Position numbers and translations under genes: made by a program
Source: Microcystis wesenbergii NRERC-220
Lineage (GTDB): Bacteria > Cyanobacteriota > Cyanobacteriia > Cyanobacteriales > Microcystaceae
Length of the DNA stretch: 64,000 nt
NCBI RefSeq assembly: GCF_032027425.1
Contig: NZ_JAVSJA010000001.1
Span: forward strand, 1,054,001 to 1,118,000
Reading direction: 5' to 3'
Shown: one piece after another, positions 3,759-20,236 of the stretch
How positions within the stretch are numbered: the first letter of the stretch is position 1
How the letters are laid out: every line of letters starts with the position of its first letter
The notes under the pieces: generated by a model
Told to the model about the DNA's origin: nothing
Databases searched by the model: none
The model's input: the letters and a program-made list of their open reading frames with translations, nothing else

Positions 3759-4523
3759 TTAATCGGGTAAAGTGAGAATTTCGACACCGGTTTCGGTGAC
3801 GGCAATGGTGTGTTCAAATTGGGCCGAAAGTTTACCATCTTTAGTAATAGCAGTCCAACCGTCTTTTAAGAGAATATGTTGCCAAGTACCCTCATTAATC
3901 ATTGGTTCAATGGTGAATACCATGCCAGGGCGAATTGTTTTGCCTTTGCCGCGAATGCCGTAGTGGGGAACCTGCGGACCGGTGTGAAAAACATTACTGA
4001 TACCATGACCGACAAAATCTCTAACCACTGAAAATCCCTGTCCTTCGGCATATTCTTGGATAGCTGCGCCGATATCGCCGATTTTACCCCCCGGCTGCAC
4101 CGCATCTATGCCTCTTTGCAGACATTCTCTGGTCACTTCCACTAACTTTTTGGCCAAGGGGGAGGGAGTACCGACAAAGAAAGTCTGCGAAGTATCGCCG
4201 TGATAACCTTCTAAAATCGGGGTGACATCGATGTTAATAATATCGCCGTCTTTGAGGATTTGATTGGCGCTGGGGATGCCGTGACAGATAACCTCGTTAA
4301 TGCTAGTACAGATGGACTGAGGAAAGCCATGGTATCCTAGAGGCGCACTTTTGGCTCCATGGGCGCGAGTCCAACGTTCTGCCTCGTCATTGATTTCTAG
4401 GGTACTTACCCCCGGTTTAACCATATCTGCCAGATGATCTAACAGTTTAGCCGCTAATCGTCCGGCTCGACGCATTTTTTCAATTTCCCGGGAGGAGAGT
4501 AAGGTGATGGTATCGTTGCCCAT
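3759..4523 (-). CDS. map: Methionine aminopeptidase, type I
   Basis: 254 residues, the normal length for a type I enzyme. It removes the initiator methionine from nascent proteins in the cytoplasm using two metal ions. Visible family motifs are LGYHGFPQSICTSINEVICHG, the metal ligands of INIDVTPILEGYHGDTSQTF (two Asp), the GHGIS..FH histidine region, the FTIEPMIN glutamate, and the final Glu in SAQFEHTIAVT. ATG 4523 gives the standard N-terminus (LLSSREIEKMRRAGRLAA). It is monocistronic, flanked by repeat-filled spacers on both sides. Confidence 0.96.
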   Translation of the reverse strand: MGNDTITLLSSREIEKMRRAGRLAAKLLDHLADMVKPGVSTLEINDEAERWTRAHGAKSAPLGYHGFPQSICTSINEVICHGIPSANQILKDGDIINIDVTPILEGYHGDTSQTFFVGTPSPLAKKLVEVTRECLQRGIDAVQPGGKIGDIGAAIQEYAEGQGFSVVRDFVGHGISNVFHTGPQVPHYGIRGKGKTIRPGMVFTIEPMINEGTWQHILLKDGWTAITKDGKLSAQFEHTIAVTETGVEILTLPD

Positions 4524-4781
4524 GAATTATCCGACTGTTGAGAAAGATTCTTGTTACATTTCTTATCCTAGCAAAATCGGGCAGCGTTATGGTTTAGGGG
4601 GGGGAGACTTTTCAGTTATCAGTAAACAGTAAACAGTAATCAGTGAAAAGACAGCACTGTTACTGCCATTTAATACTGCTTACCATTTTTCTTTATTAGT
4701 GGCAGACATCCTACTCCCCTTGCCCCCCCCACCCCCCCCCGACATCGGGGGGGGTGGGGGGGGCAAGGGGGGGCAATTAAC
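4524..4781. other. Intergenic region with heptamer runs and a very long G/C hairpin
   Basis: No gene is seen. Bases 4611-4650 carry variants of the CAGTTATC and CAGTAAA heptamers, followed by a stretch (AGACAGCACTGTTACTGCC) that recurs near 35090. Bases 4717-4770 form an almost perfect inverted repeat of some 24 bp made of C-runs and G-runs around GACATC. A shorter relative occurs at 34016-34056. Confidence 0.7.
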
Positions 4782-5014
4782 TAGGTTTTGCTGAATAATG
4801 GTAAAACCCTTTTAAAATAAGGCTTTTGACCTGTTAAAATCCGATGTTCATGCTGCGAAAATAGGATTAAGACCTTCAAAAACCTGGCATTATCCTTTGT
4901 ATAGTACATAGACTGGTACAAAAAAAGAGGGCAACAAAGCCTGAAACGACCGGCTACTGACGACCGACGCGGAGACTCCTAACCCCACCAATAAACTTTT
5001 TGCCGCAAACCCTA
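4782..5014. repeat. Small TIR element (family M1), copy A
   Basis: The element is bounded by TA and the inverted termini GGTTTTGC and GCAAACCC. The M1 consensus ends are TA-GGGTTTGC and GCAAACCC-TA, suggesting TA duplication as made by IS630/Tc1-like transposases (inference). It has no coding capacity. It ends about 20 bp before the stop codon of the next gene. Confidence 0.65.
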
Positions 5015-5034
5015 CTTATCAATCCCCTGTTTCC

Positions 5035-6042
5035 CTATTCTAAGCGCAGGATTTCTCCACCTCTAGCTAGAGATAATTCTGCTGCCTGGAGGATTTTGAC
5101 TAATTGGGTCCCTACCGATCCCGAAGATACAGGAGAATCGACACCCGTAGCCACCGACTCTAAAAAATGTTCGCATAATGCTTTTAGGGGTTCACCATCG
5201 GCAATAGGGATAGATTCCGTCTCCTGTCCCCGGGGAATAAAATAGGCTTCCTGACGCTCAAAATGGCCCTTTTGTCGGGTTAAAGGCGATCGAGAGTCTA
5301 ATTCATTAAAAATTAAAGTCCCTTCGCTGCCAACTATCCCTAAACGTCGCTGTTTATCGGGATTCAACCAACAAAGGTGAATAGTCGCTTGAAAACCATC
5401 GCCATAGATCAGGGTTAACCAGACTAAATCGGCTAGATGAGGTTGTAGCCAGAAGGTTCCCCTCGCCTGCACTAATACTGGTGTACTATTTAGCCAATGA
5501 TTAAAAATCGAGATATCGTGAATAGCTAGATCCCACAAAGCGGACACATCCTGACGGACGGGACCTAAGTGGGTGCGAGTGGCATAACCATAAAGAGGTT
5601 TACCGATACCCCCGGATTGCAGGACTTTTTGTCCAGTGATAACGGCGGGATGAAAAAGATAGGTATGATCAACTAATAAAATACGCTGTTTTTGCGCCGC
5701 TAATGCCGTTAATTCGGCACATTCTTGGGGATTGAGGGTTAAGGGTTTTTCGGCGAGGACGTGATAACCTAAATTAAGAGCGTCTTTAATCAGGGGATAA
5801 TGGCTGATGGCGGGAGTAACGACGACTACGGCCGAGATTTCGGGGTGAAGACGAATTGATTCCCAGTCATTGGCTAAAATAACTTTATTAGTATCCAGAT
5901 TAAATTGATCCCGACAGAGACGGAGTTTTTCAGGGGAGGGATCAACGATTGCCACCACTTGTGCTGAGGGATGTTGAGAAAAATGACGGACGAAATGCAC
6001 TCCCCAACGTCCTACCCCTAAGATAGCGATTCCTGTGGACAT
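5035..6042 (-). CDS. Gfo/Idh/MocA-family NAD(P)-dependent oxidoreductase
   Basis: 335 residues. The N-terminal Rossmann fold begins at once with AILGVGRWGVHFVRHF (glycine-rich dinucleotide loop) and ends with the family's HVLAEKPLTL strand, whose Lys-Pro is the conserved catalytic/cofactor element. The C-terminal alpha/beta domain contains DHTYLFHPAV and LWDLAIHDISIF, the latter containing the usual histidine-aspartate pair. Members oxidise or reduce sugars, inositols or related alcohols, and the substrate cannot be told from sequence. ATG 6042 is preceded on the minus strand by an A-rich leader and is the natural start of the fold. The gene is divergent from the HyuA-like gene with an 84-bp gap, so the two promoters share that space. 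Confidence 0.85.
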   Translation of the reverse strand: MSTGIAILGVGRWGVHFVRHFSQHPSAQVVAIVDPSPEKLRLCRDQFNLDTNKVILANDWESIRLHPEISAVVVVTPAISHYPLIKDALNLGYHVLAEKPLTLNPQECAELTALAAQKQRILLVDHTYLFHPAVITGQKVLQSGGIGKPLYGYATRTHLGPVRQDVSALWDLAIHDISIFNHWLNSTPVLVQARGTFWLQPHLADLVWLTLIYGDGFQATIHLCWLNPDKQRRLGIVGSEGTLIFNELDSRSPLTRQKGHFERQEAYFIPRGQETESIPIADGEPLKALCEHFLESVATGVDSPVSSGSVGTQLVKILQAAELSLARGGEILRLE

Positions 6043-6126
6043 TTTGCTTACTCAGATAAATCAATCTAGTTTATCTTAAAAGAATTAGGCACAATTGTTA
6101 ATTGATTCTGAGAACTGGAAGGGATT

Positions 6127-8166
6127 ATGTTAAAATTTTTCATCGATCGAGGGGGAACTTTTACCGATATCGTGGCGATAATCGATCAACCAGAAATTAT
6201 TGAACGACTAGCTAGAGATGCCGCTAGATTTCTGATTGTTCCCCTTGCCGATCAACAGTGGATTGTTCTCTATAAACTGCTCTCGGAGAATCCCGAAAAA
6301 TACCCAGATGCAGTCATTCAAGGGATCAAAGATATTAGCGGTTCCCTAGATAACATCGAAGTGATCAAAATGGGAACAACGGTAGCCACCAATGCGCTGT
6401 TAGAAAGAAAAGGAGAGCGCACGGTTTTGTTAATCACCAAAGGTTTTAAAGATGCCTTGAGAATTGGCTATCAAAATCGCCCCGATATTTTTGCCCGTCA
6501 AATTATTCTTCCTTCTTTATTATACGAACAAGTTATCGAAGTGGCGGAACGCTACGATAGTCAAGGACAAGAATTAATCGCCGTTAATCCCGCCCAAGTT
6601 AAAGCCGATTTAATACCAGTTTATCAAGCGGGTATCCGAAGTTGTGCGATTGTTTTTATGCACGGTTATCGTTATCCTGACCACGAAAAACAAGTGGCAG
6701 CTATTGCCGAAGAAATCGGCTTTACTCATCTAGCCATTTCCCACCAAGTCAGTCCTTTAATGAAACTGGTATCCCGGGGAGATACCACGGTAGTTTCTGC
6801 CTATCTATCGCCAATTTTACGCCGCTATGTTGATAGTATTAGCCAGCAATTACCGAAAACTAGCTTACTATTTATGAAATCCGATGGCGGTTTAGTCACC
6901 GCCGATAAATTTCAGGGTAAAGATAGCATTTTATCCGGTCCTGCGGGGGGAATAGTTGGGGCAGTACAAACCAGTTTAAGGGCGGGATTTAGCAAAATTA
7001 TCAGTTTTGATATGGGAGGAACTAGCACCGATGTTTCTCATTTTCAAGGGGAATACGAGCGCCAAACAGATAACGAAATTGCCGGCGTAAGAATGCGAGC
7101 GCCGATGTTAAGTATTCACACCGTGGCCGCTGGTGGGGGTTCGATTTTAGTCTATGATGGTTATCGTTTTCGGGTCGGACCGGAAAGTGCCGGAGCTAAT
7201 CCGGGACCGGCCTGTTATCGACGGGGTGGACCCTTAACAATTACCGATGCTAATGTTTTGTTAGGAAAAATTCAAGCTGCCTATTTTCCCGCTATTTTTG
7301 GAGAAGAGGGAAATTTACACCTAGATAGAGAGATTGTGCTGACAAAGTTTCAAGAATTGGCGGCAACAATGGGGGGTAATAATAGTCCTGAAATGTTGGC
7401 TGCGGGGTTTATTCAAATTGCCGTGGAAAATATGGCTAATGCAATTAAAAAAATCTCTCTACAAAAGGGTTATGATCTCAGTGATTATACTCTTTGTACC
7501 TTTGGCGGTGCCGGGGGTCAAGTGGCCTGTTTAATTGCCGATACTCTGGGAATGAAAAGTATTTTTCTCCATCCCTACGCCGGGGTTTTAAGTGCCTACG
7601 GCATGGGTTTGGCCGATTTGAGGGTAATTAAAGAAAAAGCGATCGAACAGCCGTTAAATGCCGATTTAATCGCGCAGTTACTCACGGAAATGAACGAATT
7701 AGAAGTCTTAGCGGGTCGGGAATTAGAGGGTTATAATCGGGTGCGGCAGCAAGTCAGTTTAAAATATCAGGGCAGTGATGCCACTTTAGCGGTTAATTTT
7801 AGCGATCAAATGCGTCAGGATTTTGAACGGGAACATCAAAGACGTTATGGCTTTAAACAAGAACAAAAAGCTTTAATTGTTGAGTCGATTGCCGTGGAAT
7901 TGATCCAGACTATGGACAGTCCCCAAGAAGCAATTTTAACCCGCACCCGTCCGATGGGAGAATTACCTCATATCCTCGATCGAGTAGCGGTTTTTATGGC
8001 TAATCAATGGCGGGAAACGCCAATTTATCAGCGTTCAGATCTGCAACCTTTTGATTGTCTGGCAGGACCCGCAATTATTATCGAAAAAATTAGCACGATT
8101 GTGATTGAACCGGGTTGGATGGCAAAATTAACGGAGAAAAATCATTTAATTCTCTCCAAAGATTAA
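6127..8166 (+). CDS. hyuA: Hydantoinase/5-oxoprolinase family, HyuA half
   Basis: 679 residues, matching only the N-terminal (HyuA-type, ATP-binding) half of cyanobacterial 5-oxoprolinases, which are normally single proteins of about 1200 residues. Seen: FIDRGGTFTDIVAI at the N-terminus (phosphate-binding loop), KMGTTVATNALLERKGER, SGPAGGIVGA, the second loop FDMGGTSTDVS, and a GGAGGQVACLIAD block near the C-terminus. The family hydrolyses 5-oxoproline or hydantoins with ATP and needs the HyuB partner domain. No HyuB sequence follows: the gene stops at TAA 8164-8166 and small element M1 copy B starts 1 bp later. A GGAAGGGA ribosome site precedes ATG 6127. Function without HyuB is uncertain unless hyuB lies elsewhere. 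Confidence 0.85.
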   Translation: MLKFFIDRGGTFTDIVAIIDQPEIIERLARDAARFLIVPLADQQWIVLYKLLSENPEKYPDAVIQGIKDISGSLDNIEVIKMGTTVATNALLERKGERTVLLITKGFKDALRIGYQNRPDIFARQIILPSLLYEQVIEVAERYDSQGQELIAVNPAQVKADLIPVYQAGIRSCAIVFMHGYRYPDHEKQVAAIAEEIGFTHLAISHQVSPLMKLVSRGDTTVVSAYLSPILRRYVDSISQQLPKTSLLFMKSDGGLVTADKFQGKDSILSGPAGGIVGAVQTSLRAGFSKIISFDMGGTSTDVSHFQGEYERQTDNEIAGVRMRAPMLSIHTVAAGGGSILVYDGYRFRVGPESAGANPGPACYRRGGPLTITDANVLLGKIQAAYFPAIFGEEGNLHLDREIVLTKFQELAATMGGNNSPEMLAAGFIQIAVENMANAIKKISLQKGYDLSDYTLCTFGGAGGQVACLIADTLGMKSIFLHPYAGVLSAYGMGLADLRVIKEKAIEQPLNADLIAQLLTEMNELEVLAGRELEGYNRVRQQVSLKYQGSDATLAVNFSDQMRQDFEREHQRRYGFKQEQKALIVESIAVELIQTMDSPQEAILTRTRPMGELPHILDRVAVFMANQWRETPIYQRSDLQPFDCLAGPAIIIEKISTIVIEPGWMAKLTEKNHLILSKD

Positions 8167-13668: not shown

Positions 13669-14864
13669 GGGAGCAAGTCAGTTTTGTCAGAACATAAATA
13701 CTATTCAATAGCTAAAGACTGTTATTTAGGTAAGCACAGCGGTGTTTAAGCACTTGAGGGATATTTTCTTCATTCCACTGGGCTCCAGAAATTTTCAGTC
13801 GTCGGTCAATCTGTTTAACCGTGGATTCAACGGCTCCCGAAGCAATAGAGCAAATCTCTTCTTGTTGATAGTAATTATAATTAACAATTCGATGACGATG
13901 AATCTCTAAATAACGACAGAAATTTTCAGCTCGTTCGTTTTTTAAAGGAGAGATTAATGCTATTGTTTCCTCAATTTTGCCCTGCCATAATAAACTTTCT
14001 GCTTTTTTCAATCTCTTCACTGAACCGCCGACTTTATGAAGATTTTCTACCAAATGAAACCAGTCAAGTATTTCTCTTTTTTCTCCTGGACAATCCCAGT
14101 TTTTCACAATTTTCCCAATACCGGGATGTCCGTCTCCCAAACAGGTAAGGGGGTCAGATAAAGGTTGTTGATTAACCCAATATATTAACGATTCATTTTC
14201 TCCAAACCAAGCTTTTCTTAGGAAAGTATCAACACAGATTGCTTTATAATCTTTCCAGATACAAGCCTCTCCCTTAGTTTCGGTTCTTAAGCGCACTTTT
14301 CCTCCATCTAGACTAATTTCTTGAACGGGGTTTCCTGATTCTTCTTCGGCAAATTGGTGGCGATGGACTAATCGTTGTTGAGTCCTAGCCGAGACCTTCA
14401 TCCCTATATAAAATTGAAGATCTCTGGCGGCATTTTCATAAGAAACATTGGCACTAGCTCTTAAACAACAGCGTTCTAAGTAAGGACTAATTTGGTTATT
14501 ACGAGGAATATTTAAACGGATTGCTTGTTTTTCTGTCAGGCATAATTCTCCGATGATGCTTTTTATTTTTCTCGGTCTCCCGGCTTGAGTTCCTGTCGTT
14601 TTTGTGACAAAAAAAAATCCTAGTTTCGGAGTTATATATTTTAAGGTCTGTTCTCTTATTGTCGTCTCTATTCCCTCTAAAGTTTGGATTTTTTCAGCCT
14701 CAGCTTCCTGATGAAGAATCTTGGCTATCGCTTGAATATGTTGGTTAAGTTCTTGTTGTTGCTTTGGAGTCATTTTTGTCTTTTCCCCACTCTTTTCTCT
14801 ATCCCATACCCAATTGATGCTTTTGTCAAGTAGTTTATTTGTTCTTCAGCTTTGACTTGCTCCC
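13669..14864 (-). mobile_element. ISKra4-type insertion sequence, 1196 bp
   Basis: The terminal inverted repeats are GGGAGCAAGTCA at the left and its complement TGACTTGCTCCC at the right. One transposase gene (13712-14773) lies on the minus strand. No direct repeat is seen at the flanks. The left flank is a cut M2 element and the right flank is the middle of a coding region, which suggests that a deletion or recombination involving the IS removed the sequence between. Confidence 0.87.
13712..14773 (-). CDS. ISKra4-family transposase
   Basis: 353 residues, apparently intact. Family blocks visible: a central ISLDGGKVRLRTE segment with the first catalytic Asp, LTCLGDGHPGIGKIV with the second, DWFHLVENLHKVGGS, and the C-terminal IASGAVESTVKQIDRR block with the catalytic Glu, followed by LKISGAQWN. 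A short N-terminal region holds a GRPRK basic patch. The length fits the short (single-frame) subgroup of ISKra4 elements. Start ATG 14773. Confidence 0.88.
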   Translation of the reverse strand: MTPKQQQELNQHIQAIAKILHQEAEAEKIQTLEGIETTIREQTLKYITPKLGFFFVTKTTGTQAGRPRKIKSIIGELCLTEKQAIRLNIPRNNQISPYLERCCLRASANVSYENAARDLQFYIGMKVSARTQQRLVHRHQFAEEESGNPVQEISLDGGKVRLRTETKGEACIWKDYKAICVDTFLRKAWFGENESLIYWVNQQPLSDPLTCLGDGHPGIGKIVKNWDCPGEKREILDWFHLVENLHKVGGSVKRLKKAESLLWQGKIEETIALISPLKNERAENFCRYLEIHRHRIVNYNYYQQEEICSIASGAVESTVKQIDRRLKISGAQWNEENIPQVLKHRCAYLNNSL

Positions 14865-15598: not shown

Positions 15599-15713
15599 TG
15601 CGGGGCGGTTCCTGGGGCGACGTTCCTCTTCGCTGCCGTTCCGCGGTTCGCGTCAACGGCCTCCGCCGCGACGACCGCGACGACGATCTCGGTTTTCGGG
15701 TGGTGTGCGGTGC
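15599..15713 (+). other. Probable DGR variable region (VR)
   Basis: This covers the codons for LRGGSWGDVPLRCRSA through DLGFRVV. Almost all variable positions are NNC codons (GAC, GTC, GGC, CTC, CGC and one AAC), as expected when the adenines of AAC codons in a template repeat are randomised. The central 84 bases hold only about eight A residues, although the gene around it is A-rich. No reverse transcriptase or template repeat lies in this window. Confidence 0.72.
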
Positions 15714-15791
15714 TGGGAGGACTCTGTAACCCTTTTTCCCTTTTTTCCCTTTTTACCCTCATTCCCTATTTTTCAATTTTTCTCTTTCTTT

Positions 15792-15820
15792 CCCGCCGCT
15801 AGGCGGGTCGATTTTTTTTT
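15792..15820 (+). terminator. GC hairpin plus T-run downstream of the FGE-domain gene
   Basis: CCCGCC, loop GCTA, GGCGGG, then TCGA and about ten T residues. It fits a Rho-independent terminator. DGR targets also often carry a hairpin just after the variable region that assists retrohoming, so it may have had that role instead or as well. Confidence 0.7.
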
Positions 15821-15830
15821 AAGATTTTTA

Positions 15831-15878
15831 ATGGCTTCCATTACTGTTAATATCTCAGATGAACAGTTGAAGACTTAA
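15831..15878 (+). pseudogene. N-terminal remnant of a small antitoxin-like gene
   Basis: ATG 15831 encodes only MASITVNISDEQLKT before TAA 15876-15878. The sequence looks like the start of a cyanobacterial antitoxin-type or ribbon-helix-helix-type small protein. The match stops where an M1 element end (TAGGGTTTGC, from 15880) begins, so the gene was probably cut by that element. The stretch to 15960 contains a further possible coding remnant in a plus frame (WRLEQGVKACVRCHQIITD, ending at TAG near 16009) which I cannot assign. Confidence 0.45.
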
Positions 15879-16046
15879 TTAGGGTTTGCATAGAAGATTC
15901 GATTTTCAATTTCTGTCGATGGCGTTTGGAACAAGGGGTTAAGGCTTGTGTTCGATGCCATCAAATCATTACAGATATGCCAATAATCCCAGATGATAGA
16001 GAATAGATATTTCCGAAAATTAAATATGCGTAACCTGAAACCCTTG

Positions 16047-16381
16047 GTAGGGACAATTCATGAATTGTCCCTACGTTTTCGGAGTAAAATTCATGAATTG
16101 TCCCTACGTTTTCGGAGTAAAATTCATGAATTAGTCCTACGTTTTCGGAGTAAAATTCATGAATTGTCCCTACGTTTTCGGAGTAAAATTCATGAATTGT
16201 CCCTACGTTTTCGGAGTAAAATTCATAAATTAGTCCTACGTTTTCGGAGTAAAATTCATGAATTGTCCCTACGTTTTCGGAGTAAAATTCATGAATTGTC
16301 CCTACGTTTTCGGAGTACAATTCATGAATTGTCCCTACGTTTTCGGAGTACAATTCATGAATTGTCCCTACGTTTTCGGAG
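16047..16381. repeat. 33-bp tandem array, 10 units, built on a TTCATGAA palindrome
   Basis: Ten head-to-tail 33-bp units (GGAGTAAAATTCATGAATTG then TCCCTACGTTTTC), with a few base changes (ATAAATTAGT in one unit). The first unit is a perfect 28-bp palindrome beginning GTAGGGACAATTC at 16047-16074. Because 33 is a multiple of three, both strands stay open, giving 11-residue repeats that I do not regard as genes. The units are contiguous without unique spacers, so this is not a CRISPR array. Confidence 0.9.
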
Positions 16382-16478
16382 ATGTCTAATGATGACACAG
16401 CTAGTCTCTCTGCTATAGTACAAAAGTCGTTTAGCATGATACGCTATCTAACCTTATTGCGATCGCATTGAACTTTTC

Positions 16479-17057
16479 CTATTCCCTTTGATTTGCTTGT
16501 CTAACCTGTTCGATCTCTAATTCTAAAGCTTGTGCTATCTGTTCAAAGTTTAATCCTAAGGCCAATAAACGAGGAATAGAGGCTAATTTTGCCGCTAATT
16601 CGCCTTCTTGTCGGCCTTCCTCTCTACCTTCCTCTCTACCTTCCTCTCTACCTTCCTCTCTACCTTCCTCTAAAGCTTCCTGATACACTTTAGTTTGTTT
16701 TAAATCGCTTAAACTAAACATCGCTTCTATCTCCTTTCTACTGACTTGGGGTAACTTATAAACCAAGATTGTCTCTATCAATTCTAAAAGTTCTTGCTGT
16801 TGTTTGAGCTTAGGTAATTCTTGTCTAATCTAACGGGAATAAAACCTATTATCTTTCTGAAATTGTACTTCTAGGAAATAAATAGGCTGATTGGGTGTAT
16901 CAGGCAAAAAGACTCCATCGAGACGAAAGGACAATTGTTTAACTTCCACCGAGGAGAATTGATAAGAATTGGCGGTTTCAGGAGGAAGGTTCAACAAATC
17001 AAAGAAACAAGCGGGAAATCTTTGTAAGAGTTGATAAAAAATACTGTCAGTTTTCAC
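16479..17057 (-). pseudogene. Rpn/PD-(D/E)XK nuclease-like protein, internally deleted
   Basis: The N-terminal piece (17057-16830) reads MKTDSIFYQLLQRFPACFF, then FRLDGVFLPDTPNQPIYFLEVQFQKDNRFYSR and a stop. This is the start of the cyanobacterial DUF2887/Rpn-type nuclease family, with the D...E.Q catalytic pattern. The C-terminal piece follows at once in another frame: RQELPKLKQQQELLELIETI, then the tail with four or five EEGR repeats (a 12-bp repeat at 16615-16670) and the LASIPRLLALGLNFEQIAQAL helix. About 100 central residues are absent, so a deletion joined the two parts with a frame change. The gene is not expected to be functional. Confidence 0.75.
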
Positions 17058-17325
17058 GCAATTAAACTCAAAAAGAGGCCTCTAGTTTAGCAAAAGTTTT
17101 TTATTGTATTCTTCAGGAAGCTCCTGTTTTTGAGCAATTGGGATGACGACTGTTACCCAACACCATCGGAACCAAGATTAAATAGGGTATGATGGGGGTT
17201 GGATAGATTTTCTCCTATACTTTTTCCTCAAGTATGACAACCGGGGAAAGCTGGAAGGGTGGCACACCATAAATCATCTTCTTGCCAAAGAATAACTTTA
17301 ATATTCATCTTTAACTTTTTTGTCC

Positions 17326-17838
17326 TTATATGTCGAAGTAATGATCGATATCAATCGGGAACCACTCCCCATCTAATACCTGTTCGAGGGAGAAAGGAGG
17401 CTCCACAGGAATCGCGTCGCCAGTGACGGTTTTCGCTTGTATTGAGGTTTTTCGAGCGTTCGAGTAGGCTTTTTGAAAATAATCCCGCGCGTGGTTGCTG
17501 AGAGTAGTAGTTTCTAGCCACTCTCCTAGTTGAGTTCGGAAACTGGCGATTTCTCCTACCCAGTGACAGACGTTGCGTTCTCGCTCCCGTTCCGATTTGT
17601 GATAAGCTAACTTAAACAGGTGTTCGATCAGCTGGGTTAATAAACTCTCTACAGCCCGTCTGTCACTTTTCCCCATGCACTCCACTTCCTCGATCAGATT
17701 TTCCCAGTCCACCTCATCAAACTTTTTTAGCTTTAAAAGTTCGGCGGTTTTTGAAGCCCAGAGAACAAAATCCTGATCATATAAGGCTTTCATTGATAAA
17801 GCTGTTTCTACTGCCATAGTTTCGTTCCAACTGATCAT
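17326..17838 (-). CDS. DUF29 family protein
   Basis: 170 residues from ATG 17838. The family's usual start corresponds to the internal MKALYDQDFVLWASKTAELL (ATG 17793), so the shorter form of about 155 residues is also possible. The DUF29 hallmarks are present: the LYDQDF..W....A.LL opening, VDWENLIEEVECMGKSDRRAVESLL, and the LFKLAYHKSERE helix followed by W...I..FR..L. Function is unknown. These proteins are abundant in bloom-forming cyanobacteria and often occur in mobile neighbourhoods. It stands alone beside the Rpn-like pseudogene. The 268-bp gap to 17057 holds no gene that I can see. Confidence 0.85.
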   Translation of the reverse strand: MISWNETMAVETALSMKALYDQDFVLWASKTAELLKLKKFDEVDWENLIEEVECMGKSDRRAVESLLTQLIEHLFKLAYHKSERERERNVCHWVGEIASFRTQLGEWLETTTLSNHARDYFQKAYSNARKTSIQAKTVTGDAIPVEPPFSLEQVLDGEWFPIDIDHYFDI

Positions 17839-17965
17839 AAAACTATGTCTTTAGCTTAACTTTACTAGCGCAAACCCTTTTAACTTTTTTGTCCTTTACT
17901 AAGCAGTGTAACTCGATCTCATCAGACGTTATACAATAAATCTTGTCCCTCGATCGCATTGTCCC

Positions 17966-20236
17966 ATGACTACCCCCTTCACTGCCGCAGAAATTGCCTC
18001 AGAAGGCATCAAACCCGAAGAATACGAAGAAATAGTCAAAAGACTGGGAAGACACCCCAACAAAGCCGAATTAGGAATGTTTGGCGTGATGTGGTCGGAA
18101 CACTGCTGTTATAAAAACTCCCGGCCGCTGCTCAAACAATTCCCCACCACCGGCGAAAAAATTCTCGTCGGACCGGGGGAAAATGCCGGAGTAGTGGATT
18201 TAGGCGATGGATTGCGATTAGCCTTCAAAATCGAGTCCCATAATCATCCTTCTGCGGTGGAACCCTTCCAAGGTGCCGCTACCGGAGTCGGAGGCATCCT
18301 GCGGGATATTTTTACCATGGGGGCCCGGCCCATTGCTATCCTCAACTCCCTCCGTTTTGGTAACTTGCAAGATGCCCGCAATCGTCGCATTTTTGCCGGA
18401 GTCGTGGAAGGAATAAGTCATTATGGCAATAGTGTCGGCGTTCCCACGGTGGGCGGTGAGATATACTTCGATAATGCCTACAATGGCAATCCCCTCGTTA
18501 ATGCCATGGCTTTAGGGCTAATGGAAACCGAGGAAATCGTTAAATCTGGGGCAAAAGGACTGGGAAATCCGGTTTTATACGTTGGTTCTACCACCGGCCG
18601 CGACGGTATGGGAGGGGCGAGTTTTGCCAGTGCCGAATTAACCGATAAATCTATGGATGACCGGCCCGCGGTGCAAGTGGGCGACCCTTTTCTGGAAAAA
18701 TCCCTGATAGAAGCTTGTTTAGAGGCATTTAAGACCGGCGCGGTGGTGGCGGCCCAGGATATGGGGGCCGCTGGGATCACCTGTTCTACTTCCGAGATGG
18801 CAGCCAAGGGAGGGGTGGGAATTGAATTAGACCTCGATAAAATCCCCGTCCGGGAAACTGGGATGGTCCCCTACGAATATCTGCTATCGGAATCCCAAGA
18901 AAGAATGTTATTTGTGGCAGCATCGGGACGAGAAGGCGAATTAATCGAGATTTTCCATCGTTGGGGACTTCAGGCTGTGGTCGCTGGCCAGGTAATTGCA
19001 GAACCGATCGTCCGTATATTATTTAAAGGGGAAATTGCCGCCGAAATTCCTGCCACGGCCCTGGCGGATAATACTCCTATCTATCATCGGGAATTACTAA
19101 CAGAACCGCCAGAATACGCCCAAAAAGCTCAATTATGGCAAGATGCCACTATTCCTATTCCCGAATCCTATAACGAGATTTTATTAAAACTGCTGGATAG
19201 TCCCTCGATTGCCTCAAAACGCTGGGTTTATCGTCAATATGATCATCAAGTCCAGAATAACACCGTTATTCTCCCCGGGGGGGCCGATGCGGCCGTGATT
19301 CGCGTGCGTCCTCTGGGTGCTAATCCCGCAAATTCTCGGCGAGGTGTAGCGGCGACTACAGATTGTAATCCGCGATACGTTTATCTTGATCCCTATAACG
19401 GAGCTAAGTTGGCCGTGGCGGAAGCGGCCAGAAACCTTAGCTGTGTTGGTGCTGACCCCATTGCTGTCACGGATAATCTCAATTTCGGAAGTCCAGAGAA
19501 TTCAATCGGTTATTGGCAATTAGCCACTGCTTGTCAGGGTATTGCCGAAGCTTGTCGGGAAATGAATACACCAGTAACTGGGGGTAATGTCTCTTTGTAC
19601 AACGAAACCGTTGATGCAGCTGGCAGCCCCCAGTCTATTTATCCGACTCCCGTGATTGGGATGGTGGGATTAGTGCCGGATATCGGGCAAATTTGCGGCC
19701 AAGGTTGGCAAAAAGCGGGGGATTTAATCTATATTTTGGGTTTCTCTTTGCCAACTATCGGCGCATCGGAATATTTAGCCGTTATTCACGGTTTGGTGAC
19801 GGGAAAACCGCCGGTAATTGATTTTGAATTAGAAAGAAAGGTACAAGCGGCCTGTCGTCGGGGAATTCGCGCCGGTTGGGTGAAATCTGCCCACGATTGC
19901 GCGGAGGGAGGTTTAGTCACTGCTCTGGCAGAATGCTGTATTAGTGGGCAGTTAGGGGCGGAAATTGACCTTTCTTGGCAGCATCAGGGCCGTTTTGATG
20001 CGGTGTTATTCGGGGAGTTAGCTAGTTGCATTATTGTCTCCGTTTCCTCCGAAAATCGGCAAGATTGGGAAGAATACCTAAAGACACAATTAGGAGACTA
20101 TTGGCAAATAACCGGCAAAGTTAGCGAAAAAAGCGATAATCTTCGGATTTTTGACCGGGATAAACAACCAGCGATCGATGTTAGTCTAGAAACTATACAG
20201 CAAGTTTGGTCAAAAGCGATCGAAAGAAGGCTGTAA
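17966..20236 (+). CDS. purL: Phosphoribosylformylglycinamidine synthase II
   Basis: 756 residues, typical of the small PurL that works with PurS and PurQ. It catalyses ATP-dependent amination of FGAR to FGAM in purine synthesis. Visible: the catalytic histidine region [17 protein letters not shown], the ATP/phosphate segment [38 protein letters not shown], and the second half [12 protein letters not shown] and [15 protein letters not shown], with the terminal [16 protein letters not shown] glycine-rich loop. ATG 17966 gives the normal N-terminus. purF follows 137 bp downstream on the same strand, an arrangement common in cyanobacteria. Confidence 0.97.

Follow-up and report, generated by a model that had tools for sequence, protein, structure and literature searches.

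The stretch of 64,000 nucleotides from Microcystis wesenbergii NRERC-220 analysed here (the window) carries, at the 3' end of a broken gene, a variable region (VR) of a diversity-generating retroelement (DGR). In a DGR, the reverse transcriptase (RT) and the Avd protein copy the RNA of a template repeat (TR) into adenine-mutated cDNA, which replaces the VR. Very probably, the VR of the window is the product of a DGR of the type carried by the p1FD4 plasmid in Microcystis aeruginosa strain FD4 and was written in an ancestor, after which the local avd-RT-TR cassette was lost, the gene was truncated, and the last variant was inherited. The window belongs to a closed genome of two contigs (G000, 100% complete), and we compared it with other Microcystis genomes (G001–G011).

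The Variable Region and Its Template

The first-pass annotation, made from the letters of the window alone, had placed a remote VR at 15599–15713, at the 3' end of a gene of the FGE/C-lectin fold. The profile search confirmed the gene: its product of 296 amino acids contains the FGE-sulfatase domain PF03781 (E = 3e-63), and residues 153–290 match in sequence the solved structure of Treponema denticola variable protein 1 (PDB 2y3c, E = 6.5e-32). Thus, the VR occupies the position expected in a DGR target, the 3' terminus of a gene with the C-lectin fold. The adenine depletion that had been pointed out was also borne out: segment 15599–15713 contains 8 A in 115 nt (7.0%), compared to 28% in the whole gene, and only 0.0094% of the 115-nt segments across the 64 kb are equally A-poor. 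The flanks LRGGSW, CRSA, and GFRVV are present, as is the GC hairpin past the stop codon (Table 1).

Over its 101 nt, the VR aligns with the TR of p1FD4 without a single gap. The two differ at 20 positions, all of which fall among the 28 adenines of the TR, and at none of the 73 other sites (hypergeometric p = 4.7e-15, which assumes independent sites and refers to the best among the length-matched TRs). Thirteen mismatches are located at the first codon position, seven at the second, and none at the third. The adenines were replaced by G (11), T (5), or C (4), and eight were kept. NNC codons make up 20 of the 33 codons of the VR, compared to 23% gene-wide, and they coincide with the AAC/AAT codons of the p1FD4 TR, in agreement with their initial reading as template asparagine positions. 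The sequence of about 100 bp that should differ at adenines only and lie beside a DGR-type RT therefore does exist, in a related strain. The TRs of G003 and G004 fit the VR less exactly, with 5 and 6 non-A mismatches, respectively.

Variable Regions and Cassettes across Microcystis

Targets are kept in all 12 Microcystis genomes, and an intact DGR RT was found in 4 of the 12 (G002, G003, G004, and G010). These RTs have 352 amino acids each and the motif (I/M)GNLTSQ instead of QGG..SP. These four genomes are also the ones with Avd matches over the cut-off, at a distance of no more than about 2 kb from the RT, and the TR lies downstream of the RT. The cassette of G010 is located on plasmid p1FD4 (NZ_CP046974.1, 43,611 bp).

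To count the VRs, we used a pattern that gave 68 places at first and 144 after relaxation; a motif filter left 115 (111 VRs and 4 TRs). Two of the 111 were chance matches and were dropped. Eight of 116 DNA matches were missed by the pattern and are, by eye, truncated remnants. When compared to the best of five TRs, the 109 VRs differ at 1772 of 3342 A sites (53%) and at 174 of 7466 other sites (2.3%). The alignment favours A mismatches and leans to the hypothesis; the ungapped comparison of the window with p1FD4 is independent of such alignment. The count over the VRs was repeated on all 111 rows with each letter favoured in turn: with A, 53% of the favoured sites differed versus 2.7% of the others, and with C, G, or T, 4.6–7.2% versus 21–24%.

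The genome of the window has 11 VRs after filtering and one truncated remnant, and five of the copies form one cluster. At about 2634800–2639800 of contig C1 (locus L091:2294–7288, minus strand), an open reading frame (ORF) of 1664 amino acids begins with a kinase-like part, and FGE-like modules follow in tandem, five as counted by eye, each of which bears its own VR. A second ORF (locus L014) combines a kinase with two FGE modules. The C-lectin-fold domains of the VR genes would bind ligands; in the genus, they occur in fusions with TIR, protein kinase, and GUN4 domains.

The p1FD4 DGR (locus L222) has two avd genes, with an IS5-type insertion between one of them and the RT, and its neighbours are a gene of a MoxR-family ATPase and GUN4/FGE genes. 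The fifth TR is carried by plasmid p1 of strain NIES-2481 (L221, about 6001–6905), beside a DGR RT that is interrupted by one in-frame stop. Of the five TRs, this one, in which six AAC codons follow CGCCGCGAC, fits best for 80 of the 109 VRs. RT fragments adjoin VR genes in G007 (C84:108748–108963), G003 (C15:17233–17544), and G010 (C1:4485055–4485714); these are decaying DGR cassettes.

The length of the VR shifts by whole codons. For 65 of the 109 VRs, the length difference from the best of the five TRs is a multiple of 3 nt (−3 in 33 VRs and +3 in 19) and is located mostly in AAC runs. Slippage on AAC repeats and TRs absent from the sample are both possible causes. VR remnants truncated at the 5' side fall into two sets of four genomes: G004:C121, G006:C97, G008:C74, and G010:C1:1456979 have one junction in common, and G000:C1:767945, G001:C1:1785140, G005:C4, and G007:C65 have another. 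Since the junction is identical within each set, each represents an old inherited truncation.

Frozen and Rewritten Variable Regions

To compare VRs between genomes, we chose pairs by upstream DNA (350–700 nt) at least 95% identical, a selection that does not prove orthology. Pairs with no more than 2 differences and no gap were called frozen, and pairs with at least 12 differences were called rewritten. It turned out that 33 of the 72 cross-genome pairs are frozen and 39 are rewritten, with none between. In the rewritten pairs, 758 of 1227 A-derived sites differ (62%), compared to 98 of 2634 others (3.7%). In fourteen rewritten pairs, neither genome has an intact RT.

The frozen pairs are distributed unevenly: 28 represent one gene across 8 genomes, four join G000 and G011, and one joins G004 and G009. 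All five VRs comparable between G000 and its conspecific G011 are frozen, with 3 differences in total, one of them A-derived. The VR of the window itself shows no difference from G011, and its upstream DNA is 99.1% identical. Thus, the variation among strains anticipated at these codons is seen in the VR family of the genus; in the single pair G000–G011 the VR of the window is unchanged. The VR identity with G011 and the five frozen VRs out of five make the VR of the window look stranded. We infer that in the genus writing continued at low divergence, that the machinery is often lost or missed, and that it is silent in the G000–G011 species pair.

The gene frozen in 8 genomes (G000, G001, G002, G004, G007, G008, G009, and G011; in G000, its VR is C1:45022–45125) has a near-identical VR in all of them, with 0–1 differences, although the RT-positive G002 and G004 are included and have other VRs that are rewritten. 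Loss of the hairpin was considered as the cause of freezing and rejected: all eight members keep a GC hairpin, which is of the CCCGCC type in six. In many members of the VR family, a hairpin of this type lies 59–91 nt downstream of the VR.

Could the pattern arise with no DGR at all, from the ends of FGE paralogues that diverged under selection or were shuffled by gene conversion? Recombination does act here, as indicated by the exact sharing of some VRs across genomes (28 of the 33 frozen pairs being one gene) and by the mosaic 3' end of the target described below. Against this stand the mismatches confined to adenines of a TR that adjoins a DGR-type RT, the contrast of 53% to 2.3% over 109 VRs, and the disappearance of the pattern when C, G, or T is the favoured letter. 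This explanation is hardly credible.

Search for the Machinery in the Genome of the Window

No DGR-type RT was detected in G000, the window included, either by the RVT_1 profile or with the DGR RT of G004 as a query. The profile gave four matches, and the query recovered only these four. Three contain the group II motif QGG..SP; the fourth yielded no motif. As writers of the VR, these group II RTs were rejected by size, by context, and, in the three readable cases, by the motif. In M. aeruginosa NIES-843, seven RTs have been reported, all of group II (PMC8934634). No Avd over the family cut-off (80 bits) was found in G000 or the window by the profile search; two weak Avd-like matches in G000 score 27.9 and 24 bits (8.1e-6 and 1.4e-4). 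DNA searches revealed no TR in G000 or the window. With the p1FD4 TR as a query, the 11 matches with E < 0.01 were exactly the 11 VRs of the genome, and the other 11 spanned 14–23 bases, one in the truncated remnant, none of them a TR. Thus, the negative result for a DGR RT, an accessory gene over the cut-off, and a TR, first noted for the window, extends to the whole genome. The target had been thought to be either served in trans or stranded. For G000, stranding is favoured by the missing RT and TR and by the identical VR in G011, and writing in trans probably belongs to the past.

It is conceivable that the target is still active and is rewritten in trans by an RT and a TR on a plasmid of the strain that is missing from the assembly. 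M. aeruginosa FD4 does carry its DGR on a 43.6-kb plasmid, and the 14 rewritten pairs between RT-less genomes imply that a writer can be missing from an assembly despite fairly recent writing. However, the G000 assembly is closed and contains no DGR RT, the five comparable VRs are frozen relative to G011, and the target gene is truncated. We consider ongoing rewriting quite improbable.

The Locus beside purL and the Broken Gene

A syntenic locus with a complete cassette is present in the sister genome G002 (C1:2,930,000–2,942,000): a target of 621 amino acids, avd, RT, and TR. On the right-hand side, both loci have ORFs of 96 and 170 amino acids, followed by genes that we take from their sequences to be purL and purF. 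The similarity of the window to G002 runs up to 15560 and resumes at 15777–15820, 16394–16815, and 17258–18500. The avd, RT, and TR of G002 fall between the matching blocks; in their place, the window contains a tandem array of 33-bp units. The proposed remote VR is indeed a DGR VR, as its adenine-only match to the p1FD4 TR indicates; it need not be a dispersed one, being syntenic with the G002 cassette.

Table 1. Features of the window and related phage genes.
Feature	Position	Strand	Evidence or context
Transposase of the ISKra4 family, adjoining the truncated gene on its upstream side	13712..14773	-	NF033572, 4.2e-94
DGR target gene, 5'-truncated, FGE/C-lectin-fold domain, 296 aa	14839..15729	+	ORF, PF03781
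Variable region (VR), 101 nt	15601..15701	+	Ungapped alignment to p1FD4 TR
Coding 3' end after VR, in place of IMH	15702..15726	+	Comparison with TR ends
GC hairpin CCCGCC-GCTA-GGCGGG	15792..15807	+	91 nt after VR, past stop
Segment standing in place of G002 avd, RT, and TR	15821..16393	.	Comparison with G002
Tandem array with a 33-bp unit that ends in CCCTACGTTTTCGGAGTAA; 9.9 copies at 96% match	16055..16381	.	Inside 15821..16393
First block of resumed similarity to G002 (95%)	16394..16815	.	Comparison with G002
Second block similar to G002 (97%), running into purL at 17966	17258..18500	.	Comparison with G002
Phage FGE-like VR gene, Ma-LMM01 gp062	L223:4289-5119		
Phage FGE-like VR genes	L225:4318-5118; L226:4318-5118; L224 and L227 ~4464-6125		

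The pieces of the G002 locus were compared with ten loci, several of which are cut by contig ends; the G008 locus and the purL contig of G011 were too short and were left out. The whole target gene or a part of it stands at the purL place in the window and in G001, G010, G005, and G007. Neither avd nor RT was found at this place in any of the ten loci, and pieces of the TR matched at VR ends only.

The 5' part of the target, about the first 172 codons with upstream DNA, was found in G000 at C1:2,289,676–2,290,781, which is 1.2 Mb away, and about 400 bp between the two parts matched at neither place. The copy in the conspecific G011 is whole, with 591 amino acids. The target of the window, now without its N-terminal half, has probably ceased to perform the function of the full protein.

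The gene might also be a dispersed remote target that came to lie here by chance, with no remnant of a local cassette, the G002 cassette being a later arrival. The absence of any avd, RT, or TR remnant from the window speaks for this, as do the difference between the TR type of G002 and the type that wrote the VR, and the lack of avd and RT at the purL place in the other loci compared. By contrast, collinearity with G002 holds on either side of its avd-RT-TR, for the gene, the hairpin, and the neighbours to the right, and G001, G010, G005, and G007 likewise have the gene, whole or in part, at the purL place. We regard a chance position of this kind as less likely than not.

Phages and Viral Contigs

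FGE-like genes with a DGR-type VR occur in five complete Microcystis phages: Ma-LMM01, MaMV-DC, MaMV-CH01, MaMV-DL01, and MaMV-DH01. When compared to the p1FD4 TR, gp062 of Ma-LMM01 differs at 18 of the 28 A sites and at 3 of the remaining 73 sites, and the gene of MaMV-DC at 16 and 7, respectively. No RVT_1 match (PF00078, E up to 0.01) was obtained in the five phage genomes, and the search detected the RTs of two plasmid controls.

In IMG/VR, we took 78 loci (L236–L313), classified as viral by that database, from the best 80 of 181 relatives. VR-like segments were found in 73 of the 78. In the 80 distinct segments, 60% of the A sites differ from the TRs, compared to 13% of the remaining sites; distant segments fit these TRs poorly, and in three the only mismatches to the p1FD4 TR are at A. 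Between loci L260 and L263, the upstream DNA is 99.3% identical, but the VRs differ at 26 positions. Thus, phage genes may be rewritten by the DGR of the host. At the end of a gene on one IMG/VR contig (L280:5612–5850), two VR-like segments follow each other back to back, with a spacing of about 130 bp.

Four of 30 IMG/VR contigs gave weak RVT_1 matches (E 0.002–0.005, about 11 bits), which are below the cut-off and were taken as chance. The absence of RTs from these contigs shows little, because most of them are fragments. One exact degenerate pattern for the TR had no match in IMG/VR. A short-peptide search, which can miss relatives, for close relatives of the Microcystis RT recovered only two loci with 34–36% identity.

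Discussion

The findings are consistent with the following course of events. A DGR of the p1FD4 type would have rewritten the VR in an ancestor. Later, the local avd-RT-TR at the purL locus would have been lost, and a rearrangement beside the ISKra4 element would have severed the N-terminal half of the target. The variant written last would now be passed on as ordinary sequence. At the level of the genus, targets would persist, and the writing machinery would come and go, in part on plasmids.

Which cassette wrote the VR can be judged from the TRs. The TR of G002 is of another type (B), which means that the cassette type at this locus was not the last writer. Since the fitting template is of the p1FD4 type, a DGR acting in trans was probably the past writer. 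The 25 nt after the VR stand where a DGR target has its IMH; by eye, 22 of the 25 letters agree with the end of the G004 TR and 16 with that of the p1FD4 TR. As the VR fits the p1FD4 TR and the 3' end is nearer to the G004 TR, the segment is a mosaic. Apparently, a p1FD4-type template last wrote the VR into a gene with a 3' end of another type, and writing in trans would explain the mosaic best.

Several points weigh against this account. The G002 TR can be aligned with this stretch of the window only if gaps are introduced, and over the 139 columns, which include the flanks, 25 mismatches are at sites other than A; the 3' end beyond the VR is closer to the TR of G004 than to that of p1FD4. 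Freezing was assessed against one conspecific genome, G011, a draft of 250 contigs, in which the contig with the target copy shows no visible link to purL. Finally, no piece of avd, RT, or TR is left in the window, and the loss of a cassette is read from synteny.

The DGR of Bordetella phage BPP-1 rewrites, in an adenine-directed manner, the 3' VR of a C-lectin-fold gene that has an IMH and a downstream hairpin. It is complete and acts in cis, whereas the genome of the window retains the target only; in the RT comparison, the BPP-1 RT shows 34% identity. Variable protein 1 of T. denticola, like the product of the window gene, is a C-lectin-fold DGR variable protein, but from another phylum; its VR is presumably served by a DGR.

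For cyanobacterial DGRs, 21 genomes were reported to contain 76 remote targets; Anabaena sp. 90 was described as retaining an RT-only remnant, and it was proposed that the machinery may be removed once a good variant has been selected (PMC7517822). The main text of that paper names Microcystis twice, for orthocaspases and in one reference. Gene all3226 of Nostoc sp. PCC 7120 resembles the target of the window in being a C-lectin-fold gene with a 3' VR, dispersed paralogues, and transposases nearby; it has remnant TR-VR homology and no RT gene or pseudogene nearby (PMC7517822). The remote targets of cyanobacteria described there are tied to a DGR of their own genome, while the TR matching the window is in another strain, on a plasmid. 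The DGR loci of Thiohalocapsa PB-PSB1 share with the window incomplete or trans-served loci, older diversity in broken loci, and transposons at the loci; there, the genome or population with the target also contains the TR and RT, and for the window they are in other genomes of the genus (PMC10907252). The fusions to TIR, kinase, and GUN4 domains and the MoxR neighbour on p1FD4 fit the antigen-sensor proposal of the same paper. The survey approach of PMC8144416 could not detect remote targets. Among the matches listed, we recognised no study devoted to the DGRs of Microcystis or of Microcystis phages.

We tentatively suggest, as a possibility somewhat short of even, that in Microcystis the parts of the DGR are divided among genomes: strains, and the phages infecting them, keep standing sets of targets, and an intermittent, partly plasmid-borne writer acts on them in trans, phage targets included, and is then lost, so that the variants become fixed. 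Trans-acting DGRs and remote targets have been described before, but a survey based on the RT would overlook a genome such as G000. Throughout the genus, the targets persist longer than their writer. In a culturable bloom-former, this opens questions on the rate of DGR gain and loss, the supply by plasmids, and the rewriting of phage genes by the DGR of the host.
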